From positions 1 to 64,000 of the forward strand of contig CACJBW010000001.1 in NCBI GenBank assembly GCA_902591775.1: a stretch of 64,000 bases of DNA, written 5' to 3'. The DNA comes from an uncultured Pelagibacteraceae bacterium. Its GTDB lineage: Bacteria; Pseudomonadota; Alphaproteobacteria; Pelagibacterales; Pelagibacteraceae. The first letter of the stretch is position 1. The number at the start of each line of letters is the position of its first letter. Shown in pieces: positions 48,131 through 59,002 of the stretch. The notes under the pieces were generated by a model, which did no database searches, was not told the origin of the DNA, and saw only the letters and a list, made by a program, of their open reading frames with translations. A program made the position numbers and the translations under genes.

Positions 48131-48526
48131 ATGAAGCTAACTATACCTTACTATTTACATAAAGCTGGCGCGGGTTTTCCGTCCCCTGCCACAGACTATA
48201 TTGAGGAAGATATCGATTTAAATGTTCATTTAATCAAAAATGTTCCAGCAACTTTCATCATAAGAGTTCAAGGGAAATCAATGGTGGATGTTGGAATTAA
48301 TGATGGCGATCTATTAGTTGTTGATAAAAGTTTAACGCCAAAAAACTTCTCAACAGTTATTGCAAATGTTCATGATGAACTAGTTGTTAAAAGTTTAGTT
48401 CAAGAAAGAGATAAAAAATTTTTAACATCAGGTTCTAAAGAATTTACAGATCGAATTTTAATTAATGAAGATGAAGATATATTTATTTGGGGAGTTGTAA
48501 CTTATGTCATCCATTCAGTATACTAA
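48131..48526 (+). CDS. umuD: UmuD-like S24 family autoprotease
   Basis: AG cleavage context ([11 protein letters not shown]), [20 protein letters not shown] Ser motif, ELVVKSL Lys. Confidence 0.93.
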
Positions 48527-49781
48527 AAAAATAGCACTTATTGATTGTAACTCTTTTTACGTTTCTTGTGAAAGATTATTCAATCCTAAAATAAGAAAAA
48601 AACCTGTTGTAGTTTTATCTAATAATGACGGTTGTATAATTTCAAGATCAACTGAAGCAAAAGCTTTAGGTATTAAAATGGGAGAACCTTACTTTAAAGC
48701 AAAAGATATTATTATTAAAAATAGAGTTGAAGTTTTTTCATCTAATTATTCTTTATATGGAGATTTGTCTAGAAGGGTGATGCGTACATTAAAAAGATTT
48801 AACTCTGCTATTGAAGTTTATTCTATTGATGAAGCATTTTTAGATTTATCAAATTTTCCAGATAATGAAGTTGAAAAAGTTGGAAGAGAAATTAGAGAAA
48901 CAGTTTTAAAGTGGACAGGTATTCCAACTAGTATTGGTATCGCTAAAACAAAAACTTTAAGCAAGGTTGCAAATCATATTGCAAAGAAAAAAAAATCAGG
49001 TGTAACAAGTTTGATAGGAATTGAAAATATTGATCCAATATTAGAAAAAGTTGAAATTAATGATGTATGGGGTGTAGGAAGACAACTAACGAAATTTTAT
49101 CATAAAAATGGAATTTATAACGCGAAGCAACTTAAAAATAAATCTAATACATGGATAAAGAAAAACTCCAATGTTTTAGGCTCAAGAACTGCAATGGAAC
49201 TAAGAGGAGTTCCTTGTATCGATTTAGAAACAACACAAACAAAAAGAAAAAGCTGTGTTGTATCTCGTTCTTTTGGCCAAAGAATTGAAAAATATCAAGA
49301 ATTAAAAGAAGCAGTTGCAAATTATTGTTTGAATGCGTCTGAAAAAATAAGATCTGAGTCTTTAATTGCAAAATCAATTACAGTTTTTGTTAGAACAAGT
49401 CCTTTTCAAAGTAGATTTGGATATTATTCAAACTCAAAAACGATAGATTTTGCAATTTCAACAAATAATAGTATTGAAATAGTTAAAACTGCTCTAGTTG
49501 CTTTAGACTCTATTTTTAAAAATGGCTACCGTTATCAAAAAGCGGGCGTAATGCTTACTGGTTTATCCAATGAAGATCGTAGTAAGAACCTATTTTATTC
49601 TGAAAAAGACGAGAAAATAAAGGGGTTAATGAGGTCTATTGATAATACTAACTATCGATATGGAAGATCTACGTTAAGTCTTGCTAGTGCGGGTGTTCAA
49701 AAGAGATGGAACATGAGAAGAGAACATTCTTCTAAAATAGATACAGCCGATTTTTACTTACTGCCAACAATTAAAGGTTGA
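48504..49781 (+). CDS. umuC: DNA polymerase V catalytic subunit UmuC
   Basis: [27 protein letters not shown]. Confidence 0.96.
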
Positions 49782-50932
49782 TTAAGATTAATTTTAAAAA
49801 GTTTAGCTGCATTTTTATATGCAATCTTTTCTTGTACATCTGGGCTTAAAGATCCAATCATCAAACGAACATGCTTCATATAGTGTTCAACAAAAACATC
49901 ATGTGCTGGGCTTTTACCTAATTTATGATCAGAACCAAAAAAATATCTATCGGAATATTTTTCCATCGATTTTGCCCAAACCTCATGTAATTTAAATCTA
50001 TAATCATTTGGGATATGCAAATCCTCAAAGCCCCAAAGAGAAGACCAATGAAATGCTATTTTCCAGTCAGTATATGTATTAGGACAATAATCAAAAATTT
50101 CTTCAAGGTCTTTTGTTGGCATCATTCCTGTATGAGCTATCACAATTTTTGCGTTGGGGTATTTTTCACATTTTTTTTTATAAAAATTTTTAAACTCTGT
50201 TAATCTATCTATCCCATCTATTTCATGAAAAGGCTCCAGGTGTAAATTAATCGGCATACGGTGTTCATTGACAAATTCGAACGCCTTATCAATAATTGGG
50301 TGCTTAAGATCTAAATCTAATTGCGGTTGATACCCACCATAAGGGGGATTTTTTTTCTTTTTATTATAGTGAACTAGTCCAGCTTCTCCCAATCCATAAC
50401 ATTGTCCTTTTTTAAATCTTTTAATAGTTTCTTTAAACTCTTTATTAACTTCTGAGTTCTTATATTTTTTTTTATTTGCTGACATTCCAATAAAATTGGA
50501 ATGACAATTAGTTAAAACATTCTGATGCTCTGCAGCAAAATCATAATAATAATTCCAATTATCTTCTGATTTGTAAGTATTTGGAGTTCCCATAATTACA
50601 GACATAAAAACATTTGCCTTATTTGTTAACATTGGCAAATCTTCTATAAAATACTCAGTACCTATATCTAAAGCTCTTCCGGTGGATTTTCTAGGATGTG
50701 CATGACCATCTATTATAGGTCCTAAATAAGGTTTATTTGTATCTCTTACCTCAAGATTATTAAGTTTATAACTGTCTAAAAGTTTTTTTGCTTCTTCACG
50801 ACTTTCAGTTTTTCCAAACATAATTCTTTCATAAGCCCAGTGATCGAATCTATAGTGTTCGTCAAAACTGTTGGCAAACGTTGGTAAAATTAAAAAAATA
50901 AATAACAAAATTTTTTTCATTAATTCATACAC
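49754..50932 (-). CDS. secreted amidohydrolase-family TIM-barrel metal hydrolase
   Basis: Signal peptide; [32 protein letters not shown]. Confidence 0.8.
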
Positions 50933-52188
50933 TTTGGTTCAAACCCAAAGTTTCTATCTACAAAATAACCTGACTTTTTAGATTTCCACATCCTATCATT
51001 TGCAACAATAGTATGATCTCTGTCTGTGTACTTCTCAATTAACCAGTCTAGAGAAATGGCCATCTGGTGTACATGATATGTTGCATGTGCTTGATTTTTT
51101 GTAAAATTCTGCATTCCTGATGGGTCTTTACGTTTTCTATAAGTTTTAATGTCTGTCAAACCCAGGTTTAGAACATCGACAGTTTTATCTATTTTTTTCT
51201 TTAATTTTTTTGGAAACTTATTGTAACCCCACAGCTCAGCTATAGCATAAAGCCCGAGCAGATTGTTTACACCTTGTGAATGATACCAGACATCTCTAAC
51301 ACCCCTGAAACTATTATTATGAATGTAGCCATCATCGTATACAACTTTATTAGCTTTACCAATTCCTTTTTTAATCCATTTTGCTACTTCCTCTGGTTTA
51401 TCTTTCCAAGCTAAATATGATAATACAGAAATTGTTCCATCAGCCATTTGAATAAAACCTCTCGCAGATTTTTTTGTTGTTAATTCTTTTGTAGCCCACG
51501 GCTTGATATATTTTTTGTATAAAGTATCAATATACTTATCAATAATTTGAAATTGTTCTTTAGTAAATTGATCCTTCATTAAATATGCTTGTTGAATATA
51601 AGTGGCTCCATAAATTTGAGCTTCATGTGGCCTGTGAGAAATACAAGGTTTGTCACCTTTTGCTTTGCCACCACCGTAGCATAGTTTATCAACTTTGCCT
51701 TGATCTTTTAGTATACTAATTTCTTTGGAAGTTAATGTATTTAACATCACACCTGCTTCAGCCCAGGCTGCCATTACTTTTGCAATAATTGGACCATGTT
51801 CATCCATTTTGTTATTTACGATTGCATAAATAATAGTTCCGTGTAATAGCGCTAACCGGTTAGTATGTTTTTCATGATTCACATATATACTGTTTGATCT
51901 AGCTTCATGATCTTTGTTCCAATTATATTCCGTAAGTTCCATTAAATGATCATAATTATTTCCTTGAAGTTCAGGATTTTTTTTTTTACTTACATGTGTT
52001 ATAGCAAGATCCATTTCCCAATATTCTTTACCCCAACTGCCTTTACCATGCACACCCTCTAGTGAACAAGTTTCTTTTGTAAGCTCGTTAGCAAAGAAAT
52101 ATTTTGGAATAACAATATCATTTTTCTTTGCGTAAGCACTACCACTCAACAACGAAACTAGAACCACGATCCCTAAAAGTTTTTTCAT
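50920..52188 (-). CDS. secreted alginate-lyase-like (alpha/alpha toroid) protein
   Basis: Signal peptide MKKLLGIVVLVSLLSGSAYA; YDDGYIHNNSFRGVRDVWYHSQGVNNL; helical. Confidence 0.65.
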   Translation of the reverse strand: MKKLLGIVVLVSLLSGSAYAKKNDIVIPKYFFANELTKETCSLEGVHGKGSWGKEYWEMDLAITHVSKKKNPELQGNNYDHLMELTEYNWNKDHEARSNSIYVNHEKHTNRLALLHGTIIYAIVNNKMDEHGPIIAKVMAAWAEAGVMLNTLTSKEISILKDQGKVDKLCYGGGKAKGDKPCISHRPHEAQIYGATYIQQAYLMKDQFTKEQFQIIDKYIDTLYKKYIKPWATKELTTKKSARGFIQMADGTISVLSYLAWKDKPEEVAKWIKKGIGKANKVVYDDGYIHNNSFRGVRDVWYHSQGVNNLLGLYAIAELWGYNKFPKKLKKKIDKTVDVLNLGLTDIKTYRKRKDPSGMQNFTKNQAHATYHVHQMAISLDWLIEKYTDRDHTIVANDRMWKSKKSGYFVDRNFGFEPKCMN

Positions 52189-53102
52189 TTCAAAAATGAT
52201 TTTGAAACCTTAAGAATGTGGCTAGGATTAAATTTTTTATCATTTTTTCTATATGAATAAACTTCATATTTTTCAACATTTTGTGACACAAGCTTTTGAC
52301 ATTCAGATTTATTAAACAATTTTTCACATTTTTTTTCAGATCTTACCCCATCAAAAAAAATAATTCTTTGAGGCATTTTATTTGTCTCAAATATATTTTT
52401 ATATCTAGACATAAAGCTATTATATAATCCATATCTTAAGCTTTGCTCTTTACCTTTGCTTGGATGATTTGAGATACCCTTAAAATCAATCTTTAATTGT
52501 CCATCTATCCAGACCCTCATGAAACCCTTATCGGGGTCAGGGTGCCAATTAGTATTAAAAATAATTTGAGTCCAATTACCTAATAATTCTTCATTTTTTT
52601 TTAATAGTATGTACGAGTCTCTAAATGTATCTCCATTTCTATTAAAAGTTAAACCGGCATGCATATGCTGAAACATTACTAATACTTTTGAAGGTTTGTG
52701 CCTTTTCCATTGTATTAAAGACATTTTAGATGGTGCAACTGAATTGTAATCTTTTGGTAAGAAAATATAAAATTGGTACCATCTCTCATATTTTGAAGGA
52801 TATCTTTTGTAATATAATTCAGTTCTTTCTCTATCATTTTCACAATCACTCCATTTTGGTTCATAACCACATTCGCCGTCATTTAGTTCAAATCTAATTG
52901 ATTTTTCTCCAATAATAGAAAAATCAGATACAGAAACAGGGTTAACTGCATGTCTTGCATTTAGAAAATGAAATTGTTCAGGAATTGCTTTTCCATATTT
53001 ATCTTCTTTTAAAGCTTTTTTGACTTTTGAAAATTTTGTTTTTGCAAATGCATTGCTATTAACTAAAAATCCAATTATTAAAAAAATTAAGAAATTTTTC
53101 AT
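52185..53102 (-). CDS. secreted polysaccharide-lyase-like jelly-roll protein
   Basis: SKMSLIQWKRH, VWIDGQLKIDF, LRYGLYNSF, IIFFDGVR; paralogous to 3212..4096. Confidence 0.65.
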   Translation of the reverse strand: MKNFLIFLIIGFLVNSNAFAKTKFSKVKKALKEDKYGKAIPEQFHFLNARHAVNPVSVSDFSIIGEKSIRFELNDGECGYEPKWSDCENDRERTELYYKRYPSKYERWYQFYIFLPKDYNSVAPSKMSLIQWKRHKPSKVLVMFQHMHAGLTFNRNGDTFRDSYILLKKNEELLGNWTQIIFNTNWHPDPDKGFMRVWIDGQLKIDFKGISNHPSKGKEQSLRYGLYNSFMSRYKNIFETNKMPQRIIFFDGVRSEKKCEKLFNKSECQKLVSQNVEKYEVYSYRKNDKKFNPSHILKVSKSFLK

Positions 53103-53105
53103 TAT

Positions 53106-54068
53106 TTATTTCATTTTTATTTCGGGTAATGGCTTGTCCCATTTTATAGACTTTGAGATTTTTTTTCCATGAGTACTATCACGCCATGAGCTTTTTTTAG
53201 TTTTAACATAAGAAATTGATTCTCTAGTACCAGAAGAATAAGAACATTTACCCTCGTCTAAGATCTGTTCACAACTGTCACTGAAACCAAATTCTTTTAC
53301 AGTTACGGATTGAGTCGGAATTTTATCTAAAGCCATTTGCTCTAACCATCTATAAAACCCCCACTTAAAAGTATAACCATTGCCAATAGTAAAATTTGGT
53401 CCGTATACCTCAAAAATTCTTTGATTGTCTAACCACCCAATTATTTCTCCATTATCTTTTTTTGAAGCCAATATTTTCAAACTCAAAGTTCGATAGTCCT
53501 TATAATCCTCCACATATCCAAGGTAAAATTTGTAACCAATTTTATCAAAATTAGAATTATCTGGGTCCCCCTTTAGGTAAAATACCTCTTTAGTAAAATT
53601 TATTTGATGAGCGATCCTATCATCAGAATATTGAAATTTCATCCAGGGTAAAAGTCTAGAATTACCTTTATTTGCTATTACCTGAAATAAAGAGCCACCT
53701 AAGCCATACTTAATTGGAAATTCATTTAATTTAAATTTATATTTAACATAAACCGGCTTTTCAAATTTTCTAGGCTTTTTCGCATTTGCCATCTCCCATC
53801 TTTGATTTCTTTGACCAGTTCTCTTCCAATCATCTTTATGACCTTTAAACTTTGTATCTAAAGTAATTTTAATTGCTTTACCGTTTTTATCCTCAATAAT
53901 TGATAAAGCTTTTTTTTTTGATATTGATCTGGTATCATTAACTAGTTCTTTTTTAGCTTTTCCTATTAGAATTTCTTTTTTTAAAAATTTGTAGGGATTT
54001 TCAGATGCGTTAGAAATTGTAGATAAAAAAATAAAAAAATAAATAATTAAAAATAATTTTTTCGTCAC
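53106..54068 (-). CDS. secreted polysaccharide-lyase-like jelly-roll protein
   Basis: GGSLFQV, GWLDNQRIFEV, FKWGFYRWL; paralogous to 52185..53102. Confidence 0.6.
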   Translation of the reverse strand: MTKKLFLIIYFFIFLSTISNASENPYKFLKKEILIGKAKKELVNDTRSISKKKALSIIEDKNGKAIKITLDTKFKGHKDDWKRTGQRNQRWEMANAKKPRKFEKPVYVKYKFKLNEFPIKYGLGGSLFQVIANKGNSRLLPWMKFQYSDDRIAHQINFTKEVFYLKGDPDNSNFDKIGYKFYLGYVEDYKDYRTLSLKILASKKDNGEIIGWLDNQRIFEVYGPNFTIGNGYTFKWGFYRWLEQMALDKIPTQSVTVKEFGFSDSCEQILDEGKCSYSSGTRESISYVKTKKSSWRDSTHGKKISKSIKWDKPLPEIKMK

Positions 54069-55237
54069 GCTTTGAACAATTTGTCAGAGAGATTATCTAA
54101 TTTTTCTCCCCAAAAAACTTCTTTTTGTATTCTGTTGAAATCAATGTCAAAAACAGAAGACATGGCTGATGCATAAACAGATCTAGCATCTAATGTTACA
54201 TTAAGATCTCTGCCATCAAAAAGCTCTTTCTTTTTTAAACCTGGCCAGTCTGTGTGCACTTGGCTTTTCTTAATTAATCCACCAGCCATAAATATTGCTG
54301 TTCCATAACCGTGCTCAGTTCCATTACCGCCATTTTGTTTAATGGTTCTCCCAAACTCAGTAACAGTTAGTATCAACGTATCTTTATATGAGTCTTTAAG
54401 TTCAGCTTTTAAATTTTTTATAATGTCATCCATTTCAACTAAACATTTCGTATGAGTACCGTTCACTCCACCTTGGGCCGTATGTGTATCGAAACCATTT
54501 ACCTCAAACACTGCAACTCTTGGTCCATTTGGTTTTCTTAAATATGCAGCAGCTTGTTTTGAAAGATTGTTATTTTCTCTTTTATCCCAATTGCTAGAAT
54601 ACCCAGCCATCATCTGTTCATTTTTCCGTTTTTTTATGTAGTTCATCATATCCATTAACTCTTCTTCTGAGCTATCGGCATATATAGATTGTAATAAATT
54701 TAACGTTTCGTCTCTTGGAAGTTTTCCATCTGATGGAAAATAATTATTATTTTTAGGAACTCCTCTTAATAAAAGAGGCATAGGTAAAGATAATGCCAAT
54801 CCTTCTCCTTGAAGCTTAGCTAATTTCATAGCTCTTCCTACCCAGCCTGTCTTTTCTTTATATGGAGTTCTTCCGCCAGACTCCATTAGGTTTTGGCCTT
54901 CAAAGTGAGATCTTGCTGTATAAGGAATGCTAGTAGCATGAACTATGGCCCCTGTGTTTTCCTGCCAACAGCTATGAAAAGTTTTTAGTTTTGGATGCAA
55001 AGCAAAATCTGAATCTAGCTTAATTGTATTTTCGATTAAAATATTCCTTCTTCTTTTTTCAAAATTTTTATCTCCGATTACGGGTACTGCACAAAGTCCA
55101 TCCATTCCTCCCCTAAGCATAATAACTACTAGATTTTTCTTTCTTGATGAAGAGGCTAAGATAGGCAAATTAAATCCTGATAAAAATAAAGTAGTTGCTG
55201 CTGTACCTTTTAAAAAATCTCTTCTTGATATCTTCAT
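54065..55237 (-). CDS. DUF1501 family protein with Tat signal
   Basis: SRRDFLKGTAATTLFLSGF; VVIMLRGGMDGL; FGRTIKQNGGNGTEHGYG. Confidence 0.92.
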   Translation of the reverse strand: MKISRRDFLKGTAATTLFLSGFNLPILASSSRKKNLVVIMLRGGMDGLCAVPVIGDKNFEKRRRNILIENTIKLDSDFALHPKLKTFHSCWQENTGAIVHATSIPYTARSHFEGQNLMESGGRTPYKEKTGWVGRAMKLAKLQGEGLALSLPMPLLLRGVPKNNNYFPSDGKLPRDETLNLLQSIYADSSEEELMDMMNYIKKRKNEQMMAGYSSNWDKRENNNLSKQAAAYLRKPNGPRVAVFEVNGFDTHTAQGGVNGTHTKCLVEMDDIIKNLKAELKDSYKDTLILTVTEFGRTIKQNGGNGTEHGYGTAIFMAGGLIKKSQVHTDWPGLKKKELFDGRDLNVTLDARSVYASAMSSVFDIDFNRIQKEVFWGEKLDNLSDKLFKA

Positions 55238-56679
55238 GCTTTTAATACCTCTGGTAAATTAAATAGAATCATATGTTTTTCCTCATTAGTTTTAGCTCTT
55301 GCTACAATTTTTAAAATTTTATCAGGATTATCAAAGTTAGTACGAATTATTCTTTCATGGATAGTATTATCGATTTGATCACTTATTTTATACTGATGGA
55401 ATGCTTTTTTAGCGTAAATTAATCTTCTAATAACTAACTCTGTTGATAGCCAGTCTTTTTCTAAGTCTGAATATCCATTTGGTTGTTTTTGCTTATAAGG
55501 ATGACACCCAATATCTTCTAATAACCAACTTGGAAATCTCATTTCATGAGATGGTTTAAAACCGAATACAAATTGATTCATTTTATATTCACTAACAGGA
55601 TATTTATAAATAGAACCTGACATATTAATTGTTGTTAACCACCAATTTTCTGGATTTTGAAATTTTTTATATTTATCGTTGTATTCAAATGCAACTTTAA
55701 TTGCAGCTTTGTGAACTTCTGGAAGGAGACCGTCTGATTTTTCCCAAGCTTTAATAACTGGTGCAATCATTTGAGGTGTTGGATTGTCAGTAATTAAATA
55801 TTTACATAGTTTTGTTGATATAAACTCTCTACAAGACGGGTGATTAACTAAATCTTTTATTGCAAGCTTAATACCTTTCTTTCCACTTTTGTAAACTTTT
55901 CCTAATACTTTTTTCTTACCTGGTTCATGTATTTCTCTGTCAAATGATACGTCATGACCATGTTCTCTTCCCTTTGTCCATTTAGGTCTCCAACCAGTCA
56001 TAATTTTTGCAAGTTCTATAACATCCTCTTGTGTGTATCCTCCATCTGGAGAAATAGTATGCAGTTCCATTAACTCTCTAGCATGATTTTCATTTATAGT
56101 TGCTGGTTCTTTTTTTTGTCTTCTCCAATCTTCTTTTCCACTAATTGATTTTGGACCAACATTATCTTTATTATCAAGATGCATTATCATTGGCCAAGCT
56201 AGAGTGGCTTCTTTTACCATGGTCTCAAATGTTTTATCCATATTGGATCTTAAAAATTCTCTTTGATAAGCTCCAGTTGAAAAAGAAGACAAAGTTTGAG
56301 TATCACTTATTGTAAAATGATTTCCCCAAAAGTACCAAAGCTTTGCAAGAACTGGGTGGTCACTTCTTAAAGCCTCTGCGTGTCTTATACAAATTTCATT
56401 ATTTGGCCAAAACTGTTTACCAACATCATTTTTTAATTGACGTTCTGCTCTTCTAAATCCTTCTGGGTCATTTTTATATTTTTTACTTAATGTTGTATTT
56501 TCTTCTACTCTAAACTTAATCCAATACTTTCTCATCTCTTTTTCGGATAAGATATATTTTCCTTTCCAATTGAATTCGGGAATGGTTTCAACTTGTTTTT
56601 GAGCCCAAACTAATGGATCAGATGGAGCTTTCTCATCAGGTTTTAAACCAAAAGCAACTTTTCTAAAAAAGTTCTTCAT
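55234..56679 (-). CDS. DUF1800 family protein
   Basis: LWYFWGNHFTIS; NENHARELMELHTIS; YTQEDVIELAKIMTGWR. Confidence 0.92.
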   Translation of the reverse strand: MKNFFRKVAFGLKPDEKAPSDPLVWAQKQVETIPEFNWKGKYILSEKEMRKYWIKFRVEENTTLSKKYKNDPEGFRRAERQLKNDVGKQFWPNNEICIRHAEALRSDHPVLAKLWYFWGNHFTISDTQTLSSFSTGAYQREFLRSNMDKTFETMVKEATLAWPMIMHLDNKDNVGPKSISGKEDWRRQKKEPATINENHARELMELHTISPDGGYTQEDVIELAKIMTGWRPKWTKGREHGHDVSFDREIHEPGKKKVLGKVYKSGKKGIKLAIKDLVNHPSCREFISTKLCKYLITDNPTPQMIAPVIKAWEKSDGLLPEVHKAAIKVAFEYNDKYKKFQNPENWWLTTINMSGSIYKYPVSEYKMNQFVFGFKPSHEMRFPSWLLEDIGCHPYKQKQPNGYSDLEKDWLSTELVIRRLIYAKKAFHQYKISDQIDNTIHERIIRTNFDNPDKILKIVARAKTNEEKHMILFNLPEVLKA

Positions 56680-56697: not shown

Positions 56698-57567
56698 TTA
56701 TTTTATTTTTTCAATATTATGTATATTTGTTAAAGAATTATTAAATTCAGTCATATTTTCTCTTCCTGAGATTTTTAAAATAACTAGACCAAATATAATG
56801 ATTAAAGCCAAGGGTATTGCTGTAATTACACTTATATAATCGGCTATAATTATTAAATATAATGCATAAAAAGCTATTGATCTAAAAATTACACCTGTTT
56901 TAAAAACAGCGATAATGGCTAATGAATGCTTTATTAAATTGATGAAACTCATTTTTGAGGGACCAAAATATCTTGAACCTCTTATTGATGGAGATTTAAT
57001 TAAATTATTTTCAGTTTTTGCCAAAGATCCTGAAAAACTACTCCAAGTTGCTTTCTCCTCAATTAGCTTTTTAACTGTTTTTTTTGTAAGGCAAGTATAG
57101 TTTCCAAATTTTATAAATTTCCCTGTAAATGTGAAAGTAATTATTTTATGAAAAAAATAGCAAATTTTAAAAATTAAACTCTCAGATCTTTTAACTCTTT
57201 CTCCAACAATGGTATTATTTGGATTATCTTTAATCTTTTCCACAAAGTTTCTTATTTCCTCAGGTCTATCCTCTCCATCTCCATCCATAGGTATTACATA
57301 ATTAAATTCCTCATTTTCTGAGATATATTTAAGTCCTGCAGCAATACATCTTGCATGTCCTCTATTATTTCTCATATTTATTAATTTTAAAGATTTAATA
57401 TTTTTTATATTTTTAGTTTCTAGAATTTTTTCTTCAGTTGAGGCATCATCGACTACAATAACTGAGAATGAAGCTTTAAGGTCGGAGACATTAGTATTAA
57501 TTTCTTCAATTAATTTTGATACAGATTTAAAATCATTGAAGACTGGAATTAATATTATAATATTCAT
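56698..57567 (-). CDS. GT2 family glycosyltransferase (polyprenol-phosphate type)
   Basis: ILIPVFNDFKSV; VVDDAST; PMDGDGEDRPEEI; C-terminal TM. Confidence 0.88.
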   Translation of the reverse strand: MNIIILIPVFNDFKSVSKLIEEINTNVSDLKASFSVIVVDDASTEEKILETKNIKNIKSLKLINMRNNRGHARCIAAGLKYISENEEFNYVIPMDGDGEDRPEEIRNFVEKIKDNPNNTIVGERVKRSESLIFKICYFFHKIITFTFTGKFIKFGNYTCLTKKTVKKLIEEKATWSSFSGSLAKTENNLIKSPSIRGSRYFGPSKMSFINLIKHSLAIIAVFKTGVIFRSIAFYALYLIIIADYISVITAIPLALIIIFGLVILKISGRENMTEFNNSLTNIHNIEKIK

Positions 57568-57692
57568 TAACTTATTGAGCCTATCAGTCTAAATAGAGAA
57601 GCAAAAAAACCATATCCTGAGAGTTCAATTAAAACAACAATTCCAATAATGAATAAAAGTCTCTTGTTTTTTTGATTAAATTGAAATTTCAT
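57567..57692 (-). CDS. small single-TM protein (41 aa)
   Basis: MKFQFNQKNKRLLFIIGIVVLIELSGYGFFASLFRLIGSIS, touching both neighbouring genes. Confidence 0.5.
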   Translation of the reverse strand: MKFQFNQKNKRLLFIIGIVVLIELSGYGFFASLFRLIGSIS

Positions 57693-59002
57693 TTATATGT
57701 TAAGCATTTCATATCTTTGTTGCACAATTGGACTTCATTTGAACTATAAATCCATTTTGGTCTTTCTGGAAGATGATAAGATATATTCCCAGCAATCCAT
57801 TCATTGCCTTTAATATATTCCATTTTTCCAAGTTCCTTACCCACAGTTTCATAAAAAACTTTAGCCTGCTTAGCTAACTTTTTACCTTCAAAATCAGTTC
57901 TTTTATCAGTTTTAGTAATTGAAACATAAGAATACAAAATTGGAGATAATAAGAATAATATCAAAAAGATTGAAGAAAACATTCTCATTTTTTCAAAATT
58001 AATTTCTGATTTTAAAATATAAACAAATAACAAGCCAAAGCTTATATAAAATGGTGTCATCCACATAGTTCTAATTTTTACACCCATAGTAAATGATGTA
58101 AGAAAAATAAAAAAAATTGGAATTAAATTAATTGATAATAAAAACAAAAGCTTTTCATCGTTTAAATTTATATTTATTTTAAATTTTTTAATTAAAACAA
58201 AAATCATTAGTAAAAACGGTAATAATATTCCAATTTGCTTGCCTAGAAATATCGTAGGATGTTTTAAGTGATTTAAAATACTTGCCTCTTCTGATCCAGT
58301 TCTTAGAAGTCCATAAGTAATAGTTACATAATTATTCTCAGTTAACCAAATAATGTGTGGTAATAAAATTATAATAAAAGGAACGAAAGAAATTAGGCAC
58401 TTTAAATTTAATCTTTTGGTATAAATCATGTAAATTAAAAGTACATCTATTGCTAAACCTAAATAGACAAATAAATATTTAGATAGAAACCCAAGTCCAG
58501 CAAATAGACCAAGTAAAAACCAATCTGTTATTTTGTTATTCTTAATTCCTCTCCATAAATAATATACAGAGAGAGACCAAAACGGTATTAAGCAAACATT
58601 TACATTAAATTCAGGTGTAGTGAAGTTATAGAAATATATTCCCTCTAATAACAAAACCGATAATAAACAATAAATTTTGTTATCAAAAAAATCTTCAGCT
58701 AACTTAAAAACTACAAGGAATGAGACTACGATACAGATTTGACTTAACAAATAATAAGCCCAGTCTTGAGATCCAAAGATTTGGTAAAATATTTCAGGTA
58801 AAAATGCGCTCATTGGCGGGTGCTTATTAAATCCCCAGTCTAAATTACTACCCCATGCTAAGGCCTCTATAGTATCAAGTGGTAAATTGTTATTTGTTAA
58901 ACTGGGAACCAATGTCCATATGATTAAATGAGCTGAAACAAAAATATAAAATAAATTACTTATATTCTTTTTATAAATAGCCATTTTCATTAATTTATAC
59001 AA
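57689..59002 (-). CDS. GT39/ArnT-PMT-like integral membrane glycosyltransferase
   Basis: WGSNLDWGFNKHPPMSAFLP; >8 TM. Confidence 0.88.
   Translation of the reverse strand: MYKLMKMAIYKKNISNLFYIFVSAHLIIWTLVPSLTNNNLPLDTIEALAWGSNLDWGFNKHPPMSAFLPEIFYQIFGSQDWAYYLLSQICIVVSFLVVFKLAEDFFDNKIYCLLSVLLLEGIYFYNFTTPEFNVNVCLIPFWSLSVYYLWRGIKNNKITDWFLLGLFAGLGFLSKYLFVYLGLAIDVLLIYMIYTKRLNLKCLISFVPFIIILLPHIIWLTENNYVTITYGLLRTGSEEASILNHLKHPTIFLGKQIGILLPFLLMIFVLIKKFKININLNDEKLLFLLSINLIPIFFIFLTSFTMGVKIRTMWMTPFYISFGLLFVYILKSEINFEKMRMFSSIFLILFLLSPILYSYVSITKTDKRTDFEGKKLAKQAKVFYETVGKELGKMEYIKGNEWIAGNISYHLPERPKWIYSSNEVQLCNKDMKCLTYK

Follow-up and report, generated by a model that had tools for sequence, protein, structure and literature searches.

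Organization of the six-gene run

The stretch analysed here, hereafter the window, comprises 64,000 nt of a contig from an uncultured Pelagibacteraceae bacterium (CACJBW010000001.1, assembly GCA_902591775.1), whose genome (0.97 Mb, 70% complete) has SAR11 (Pelagibacteraceae) single-cell genomes as its nearest named relatives. At positions 49754-56679 it carries six co-directed, closely spaced open reading frames (ORFs) on the minus strand, all of them at the coordinates and on the strand given by a first-pass annotation made from the sequence alone. By comparison with other SAR11 genomes, these six genes are one allele of a hypervariable SAR11 site, which is bordered by a PMT/GT2 pair of glycosyltransferase genes on one side and by the convergent umuDC genes on the other.

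The run begins with a 481-aa DUF1800 protein (55234..56679; PF08811, E = 6e-72), which has no export signal and is the constant partner of the next product, a 390-aa DUF1501 protein (54065..55237) combining PF07394 (E = 7e-27) with a twin-arginine translocation (Tat) signal and an alkaline-phosphatase/sulfatase-like fold. Four exported proteins follow, hereafter the cargo: PLb, a 320-aa jelly-roll polysaccharide-lyase (PL) relative (53106..54068); PLa, a 305-aa PL20-like polysaccharide lyase (52185..53102; PF14099, E = 6e-26); ALY, a 422-aa alpha-toroid protein with a PL5-like fold according to Foldseek on its model (50920..52188); and AMH, a 392-aa amidohydrolase (49754..50932; PF04909, Amidohydro_2, E = 8e-10). 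A Pfam scan matched five of the six proteins, one of these (PLb) under the curated cut-off, and returned no match for ALY. Sec-type signals start the last four proteins, as seen in the sequences and in a pattern scan of their families, and the same scan found Sec-like signals in all cargo families. In these respects, namely the Tat signal on DUF1501, the Sec signals on the last four proteins, an amidohydrolase at the end of the run and the lack of a TonB receptor in it, the first-pass annotation had been right.

Upstream of the run, on the same strand and 18 nt away, lies the GT2 glycosyltransferase gene (56698..57567; PF00535, E = 1e-15), followed by the gene of a PMT_2 family glycosyltransferase (57689..59002; PF13231, E = 4e-33), a conserved flank. 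The opposite flank is formed by umuD (48131..48526, plus strand), also conserved, and umuC (48504..49781, plus strand; named from sequence and homology by eye), which is convergent with the cargo, the 3′ end of AMH running 28 nt into that of umuC. The gaps between the six genes are −13, −4, +3, −4 and −4 nt, from which co-transcription had been called almost certain. Such tight packing makes co-transcription likely but is nothing out of the ordinary here, because about half of the same-strand neighbours in the rest of the window (52%) are likewise at most 4 nt apart; with a median same-strand gap of 3 nt, close spacing is weak as special evidence for an operon.

A hypervariable site in SAR11

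The comparison covered 14 regions of related genomes, together with 80 named SAR11 loci that contain a DUF1501 relative, and was made by clustering their genes. The gene families of the run came back at the same site across SAR11, which is more than chance. Among the 57 loci possessing both DUF1501 and umuC, 39 different cargo orders were counted, seven loci were empty, i.e. had DUF1800-DUF1501 without cargo, and the distance at the site varied from −3 to 9206 nt. The cargo is drawn from a pool of exported PL20-like and PL5-like lyases, GH10-like proteins, the amidohydrolase, and uncharacterised secreted proteins or urease genes, with PL families in 33, ALY in 16 and GH10-like proteins in 16 of these loci. 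In the loci closest to the window the flanks were mostly 81-100% identical, while DUF1800/DUF1501 reached only about 54-70% and the cargo was mostly different; umuC was 82-99% identical across the loci compared, and umuD 94-100% against the closest ones. GT2 directly adjoins umuC in the empty-site genomes L117, L118 (G126, which we take to be Ca. P. ubique HTCC1062) and L120. The site therefore has the conserved flanks, replaced content and empty sites of a flexible island.

The first-pass annotation had taken the six genes for one system. A fixed six-gene system is ruled out: their exact order was found in one other genome (L036, AG-918-P10), the DUF pair occurred without cargo in 7 of the 57 loci, and the loci L116, L119 and L123 carry lyases at the GT2/umuC site without DUF1800-DUF1501. 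Of 127 near-complete genomes of the family that were sampled, 26 had DUF1501, one of these probably through contamination: L126 (G148 contig C12, from another SAR11-family genus) is a DUF1501 contig without SAR11-like genes, and was set aside.

Some further contents of the site were recorded as well. In L116 (3250-5937) and L123 (3662-6349), an 895-aa protein resembling phosphoenolpyruvate carboxylase by eye stands beside PL5-type lyases, with no DUF pair. An exported, Gly/Met/Ala-rich protein of 820-840 aa, without a Pfam match, was seen in L042 (14146-16653), L026 and L125, always beside a partner of 180-203 aa.

Exchange of the cargo as a block

Compared with L036, the third-codon-position identity of the four cargo genes was 98-100%, against 94% for umuC, 88% for DUF1501, 85% for DUF1800, 82% for PMT and 72% for GT2, indicating that the four cargo genes moved recently as a block and have a history apart from that of DUF1800-DUF1501. 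In the more distant locus L021 the pattern was reversed, with 58-68% in the flanks and 73-83% in DUF1800/DUF1501, which is a further pointer to exchange. AMH was 97-99% identical in all eight other carriers, of which L034 has its copy at a different genome position. The simplest reading is that cargo blocks pass between lineages by homologous recombination between the conserved flanks.

Lyase relatives also occur elsewhere. A gene for an exported toroid lyase-like protein (L033:8645-9787) and a jelly-roll lyase-like gene (L135:8325-9167) were found at one and the same junction in the histidine operon (gene names by eye), apparently another place where lyase genes insert. The window's own genome holds a further PF14099 lyase relative outside the island (L133:9115-10182, G000 contig C12).

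The lyase-like cargo proteins

PLa scored 92 bits against PF14099, well above the curated cut-off of 29.9 bits, and its family profile retrieved the glucuronan lyase 2zzj (E = 5e-10), in which H53, Q91 and Y200 have a catalytic role. Q131 and Y227, equivalent to Q91 and Y200, are invariant in the PLa family, and H53 aligns beside its invariant R93. PLb, at 27.3 bits, stays under the cut-off and is classed as a relative, not a member, of PF14099; its own relative L022:6618-7799 (36% identical) exceeds the cut-off with 40.3 bits, and profile comparison by hhalign joined PLb to the PLa family (E = 2e-11), with R90-x-E92, Q129 and Y239 invariant. Searches of the PDB with single protein sequences gave nothing useful, and profile searches did better.

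The ALY model (predicted template modelling score, pTM, 0.71) matched Smlt1473, PanPL and AlgL (PL5) best in Foldseek, followed by PL38; the probability for the first three was 1.00, with E-values of only 3e-4 to 1e-2 and a mean predicted local distance difference test (pLDDT) of 64 for the model. ALY thus resembles lyases in its modelled fold, but its active site is altered in the profile alignment described below, and we do not file it as a PL5 member. The two jelly-roll lyase relatives and the alpha-toroid lyase-like protein proposed by the first-pass annotation are thereby borne out; on the conditions that it had named for its own refutation the outcome is divided, since lyase-like folds were obtained and the component genes turn up together elsewhere, but ALY retains the PL5 catalytic residues in part only. 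Beta-elimination on a uronate polymer is the predicted activity of at least the PL20-like proteins.

The DUF1800-DUF1501 pair

By its modelled fold (pTM 0.78), DUF1501 is an alkaline-phosphatase-superfamily protein, its best Foldseek matches being S1 sulfatases, YejM and EptC (E ~1e-4, TM ~0.4). S110-H111, D250, H252, E294 and H309 are invariant in 28 alphaproteobacterial sequences and are candidate metal and nucleophile residues. A Tat motif was detected in 89 of 90 SAR11 DUF1501 members and a signal-like pattern in only 2 of 90 SAR11 DUF1800 members, which suggests that DUF1800 is either a partner of DUF1501 in the cytoplasm or travels as a passenger on Tat. A survey of 20 regions from other alphaproteobacteria turned up no family recurring beside the pair, so that the neighbours gave no clue to its function. 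Two tandem DUF1800-DUF1501 pairs, clearly diverged in sequence, were observed in L038, L040, L083 and L125.

Relatives in a jumbo-phage-like lineage

The closest non-SAR11 relatives found for ALY and PLa belong to an uncultivated jumbo-phage-like lineage. Three viral contigs, 72-99 kb long, contain full-length ALY homologs of 75-81% identity. A second subtype of ALY within SAR11 is much more distant (~31-36% to ALY) and itself has homologs of 61-65% in four more viral contigs. Genes beside the phage ALY encode thymidylate synthase, an ATPase and an HNH family protein, with relatives including those of PA5oct and other jumbo phages. In the ALY tree, phage and SAR11 genes are interleaved (with long-branch warnings on single rows), and phage lyases form the sister group of the PLa subfamily (tree support 100/100). 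Collinear genes connect the contigs with phage PLa relatives to those with ALY, which places both enzymes, one or the other per contig, in a single phage lineage.

The phage lyase proteins start with signal peptides or lipobox-like sequences, unlike tail depolymerases; the lineage, with exported or lipoprotein lyase-like genes, is represented by L189-L201. No ALY or PLa relatives were found among annotated phages (INPHARED) and PHROGs, a BFVD fold search with ALY gave no significant match, and the viral contigs contained no relatives of PLb, the amidohydrolase or the GH10-like cargo. The island might be a phage-driven, swappable locus for trimming glycans, with SAR11 and this lineage drawing their exported uronate lyases from a common stock, all of them editing one SAR11 envelope glycan, and with the phages exporting host-acting lyases instead of bearing them on their tails, but we hold this to be doubtful.

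Possible functions of the island

What the computation shows directly is how the island is built and how it varies, its exchange in blocks, the export signals, the class of the folds and the relatives in phages; the anatomy, variability and exchange of the island are well supported, its function is not. The reading that we rank first, tentatively and at somewhat less than an even chance, is that the island edits an acidic envelope or self-associated glycan of the cell or its kin and does not serve to obtain food; of the earlier guess that the target glycan is short or self-made, it shares the self-made part. A modular island inserted at the convergent GT2/umuC junction would then combine two modules. 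The first, DUF1800-DUF1501, would supply a hydrolase with a sulfatase-like fold that leaves by the Tat route, along with a partner that has no signal, the two probably being folded or assembled together in the cytoplasm. The second would be a swappable cargo of Sec-exported carbohydrate-active proteins, represented in the window by PLa and PLb as PL20-like lyase relatives, by ALY as a divergent protein with the PL5 fold and by the amidohydrolase AMH, of which at least the PL20-like proteins would act by beta-elimination, in the periplasm or on the cell surface, on a uronate-rich glycan belonging to the cell's own envelope or to that of its kin. A uronate-rich substrate is proposed because of the PL20 and PL5 relationships of the cargo, and the glycosyltransferase genes adjoining the site were counted for envelope-glycan editing. 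KduI (PF04962) and KDPG (2-keto-3-deoxy-6-phosphogluconate) aldolase (PF01081) were found in none of 13 SAR11 genomes (12 with a completeness of 90% or more), although the controls were detected; together with the phage relatives of two of the lyases, this argues against a feeding system.

Several points weigh against editing of the cell's own glycan. Urease genes, which have no link to glycans, replace or accompany the lyase cargo in 11 of the 57 loci (L029, L041, L107, L114 and others). In a profile alignment with PL5-type cargo of the same site, ALY keeps the Arg and Tyr but shows Asp/Asn-Gly in place of Asn-His, and it may be inactive and not a working lyase. The DUF pair need not act together with the lyases, and uronate catabolism could proceed through non-orthologous enzymes, a route outside the search for KduI and KDPG aldolase. 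SAR11 is at most a candidate host of the phages, and the lyase genes may have passed in either direction.

Ranked second, and in our view rather unlikely, is a minimal feeding system, in which the exported lyases would act on dissolved polyuronates of algae or bacteria, and the small products would enter by porins or general transporters to be catabolised. Enzymes of this kind serve other marine bacteria in feeding, and the glucuronan-lyase and PL5 relationships would suit such a role, as would the genes for GH10-like proteins and sulfatases that adjoin the site in other genomes; but the run has no uptake gene, the two catabolic enzymes were missing from the genomes searched, and the phage relatives are more easily explained by action on an infected cell. 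Published work, moreover, casts Pelagibacter as a scavenger whose glycan niche is narrow (PMC10322874).

The third explanation, which we consider unlikely, is that the GT2/umuC junction merely tolerates insertions, the DUF pair, the lyases and urease being unrelated and without a joint function. The modules are indeed separable, with the DUF pair found without cargo and lyases without the DUF pair, and differ in their exchange history; urease occurs at the site, and the DUF pair lacks recurring neighbours in other alphaproteobacteria. A merely permissive site would, however, leave unexplained that the cargo is dominated by the exported carbohydrate-active families tallied above and is co-directed with the DUF pair. 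A purely phage-facing role, in which the cargo removes or alters a phage-bound glycan at a resistance locus kept by phage pressure, comes last and is very unlikely, for although one phage lineage has two of the lyase families in exported or lipoprotein form and allelic variability at the site is strong, SAR11 is at most a candidate host of those phages, Pfam recognised no known defence gene in the cargo (no PADLOC search was made), and the viral contigs yielded no relatives of PLb, the amidohydrolase or the GH10-like proteins.

Significance and comparison with known systems

In SAR11, described as a scavenger of small molecules, roughly one in five of the near-complete genomes sampled has the island, which is often stocked with lyase-like proteins for export; as the site is empty in what appears to be the reference strain, reference-based surveys would miss the trait. 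Should the cell's own acidic glycan be edited, and by enzymes related to those of phages, the island would offer a handle on SAR11 surface make-up and phage encounter; it is also a concrete setting for testing the widespread, uncharacterised DUF1800-DUF1501 pair. In the open literature, with most subscription journals and preprints outside its scope, we found no account of the island or of exported lyases in the phage lineage.

The SAR11 hypervariable regions HVR1-HVR4, defined on HTCC1062 (Wilhelm et al. 2007, PMC2217521), likewise hold variable genes between conserved flanks, HVR2 being related to the cell surface as well. That paper makes no mention of lyases, umu genes or urease, though its gene numbers were not mapped onto the GT2/umuC site. 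The regions carry genes for lipopolysaccharide synthesis or autotransporters, whereas the cargo of the GT2/umuC island consists of exported lyase-like enzymes. If G126 is HTCC1062, as we presume, the site is empty in that strain and the island could not show there.

Polysaccharide utilisation loci resemble the island in clustering exported lyases, glycosidases and sulfatases, but the run has no TonB/SusCD or dedicated transporter, its composition is variable, and no canonical uronate catabolism was found in the genomes tested; genes resembling tripartite ATP-independent periplasmic (TRAP) transporters by eye lie near some other loci, and none in the run of the window. DUF1800-DUF1501 pairs have been described beside bacterial chitin synthases (PMC5122149), where the same two families, with a Tat-borne DUF1501, stand in an operon with a GT2-family glycan gene; in contrast, the island has no chitin synthase and its cargo is lyase-like and variable.

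With the glucuronan lyase of PL20 from Trichoderma reesei (2zzj), PLa shares a jelly-roll fold family and the Gln and Tyr, but it is bacterial, about 300 aa long, has an invariant Arg for H53, and its activity is a predicted one. ALY shares the alpha-toroid fold and the active-site Arg and Tyr with the PL5 lyases Smlt1473, PanPL and AlgL, and differs from them in the Asn-His position, where it has Asp/Asn-Gly, and in having no match to Pfam PF05426. Phage depolymerases are phage-encoded enzymes that cut polysaccharides; the phage lyases described here differ from them in their signal-peptide or lipobox-like N-termini and in lying among nucleotide-metabolism genes, and, judged from these features, look made for export from the infected cell and not for the tail.

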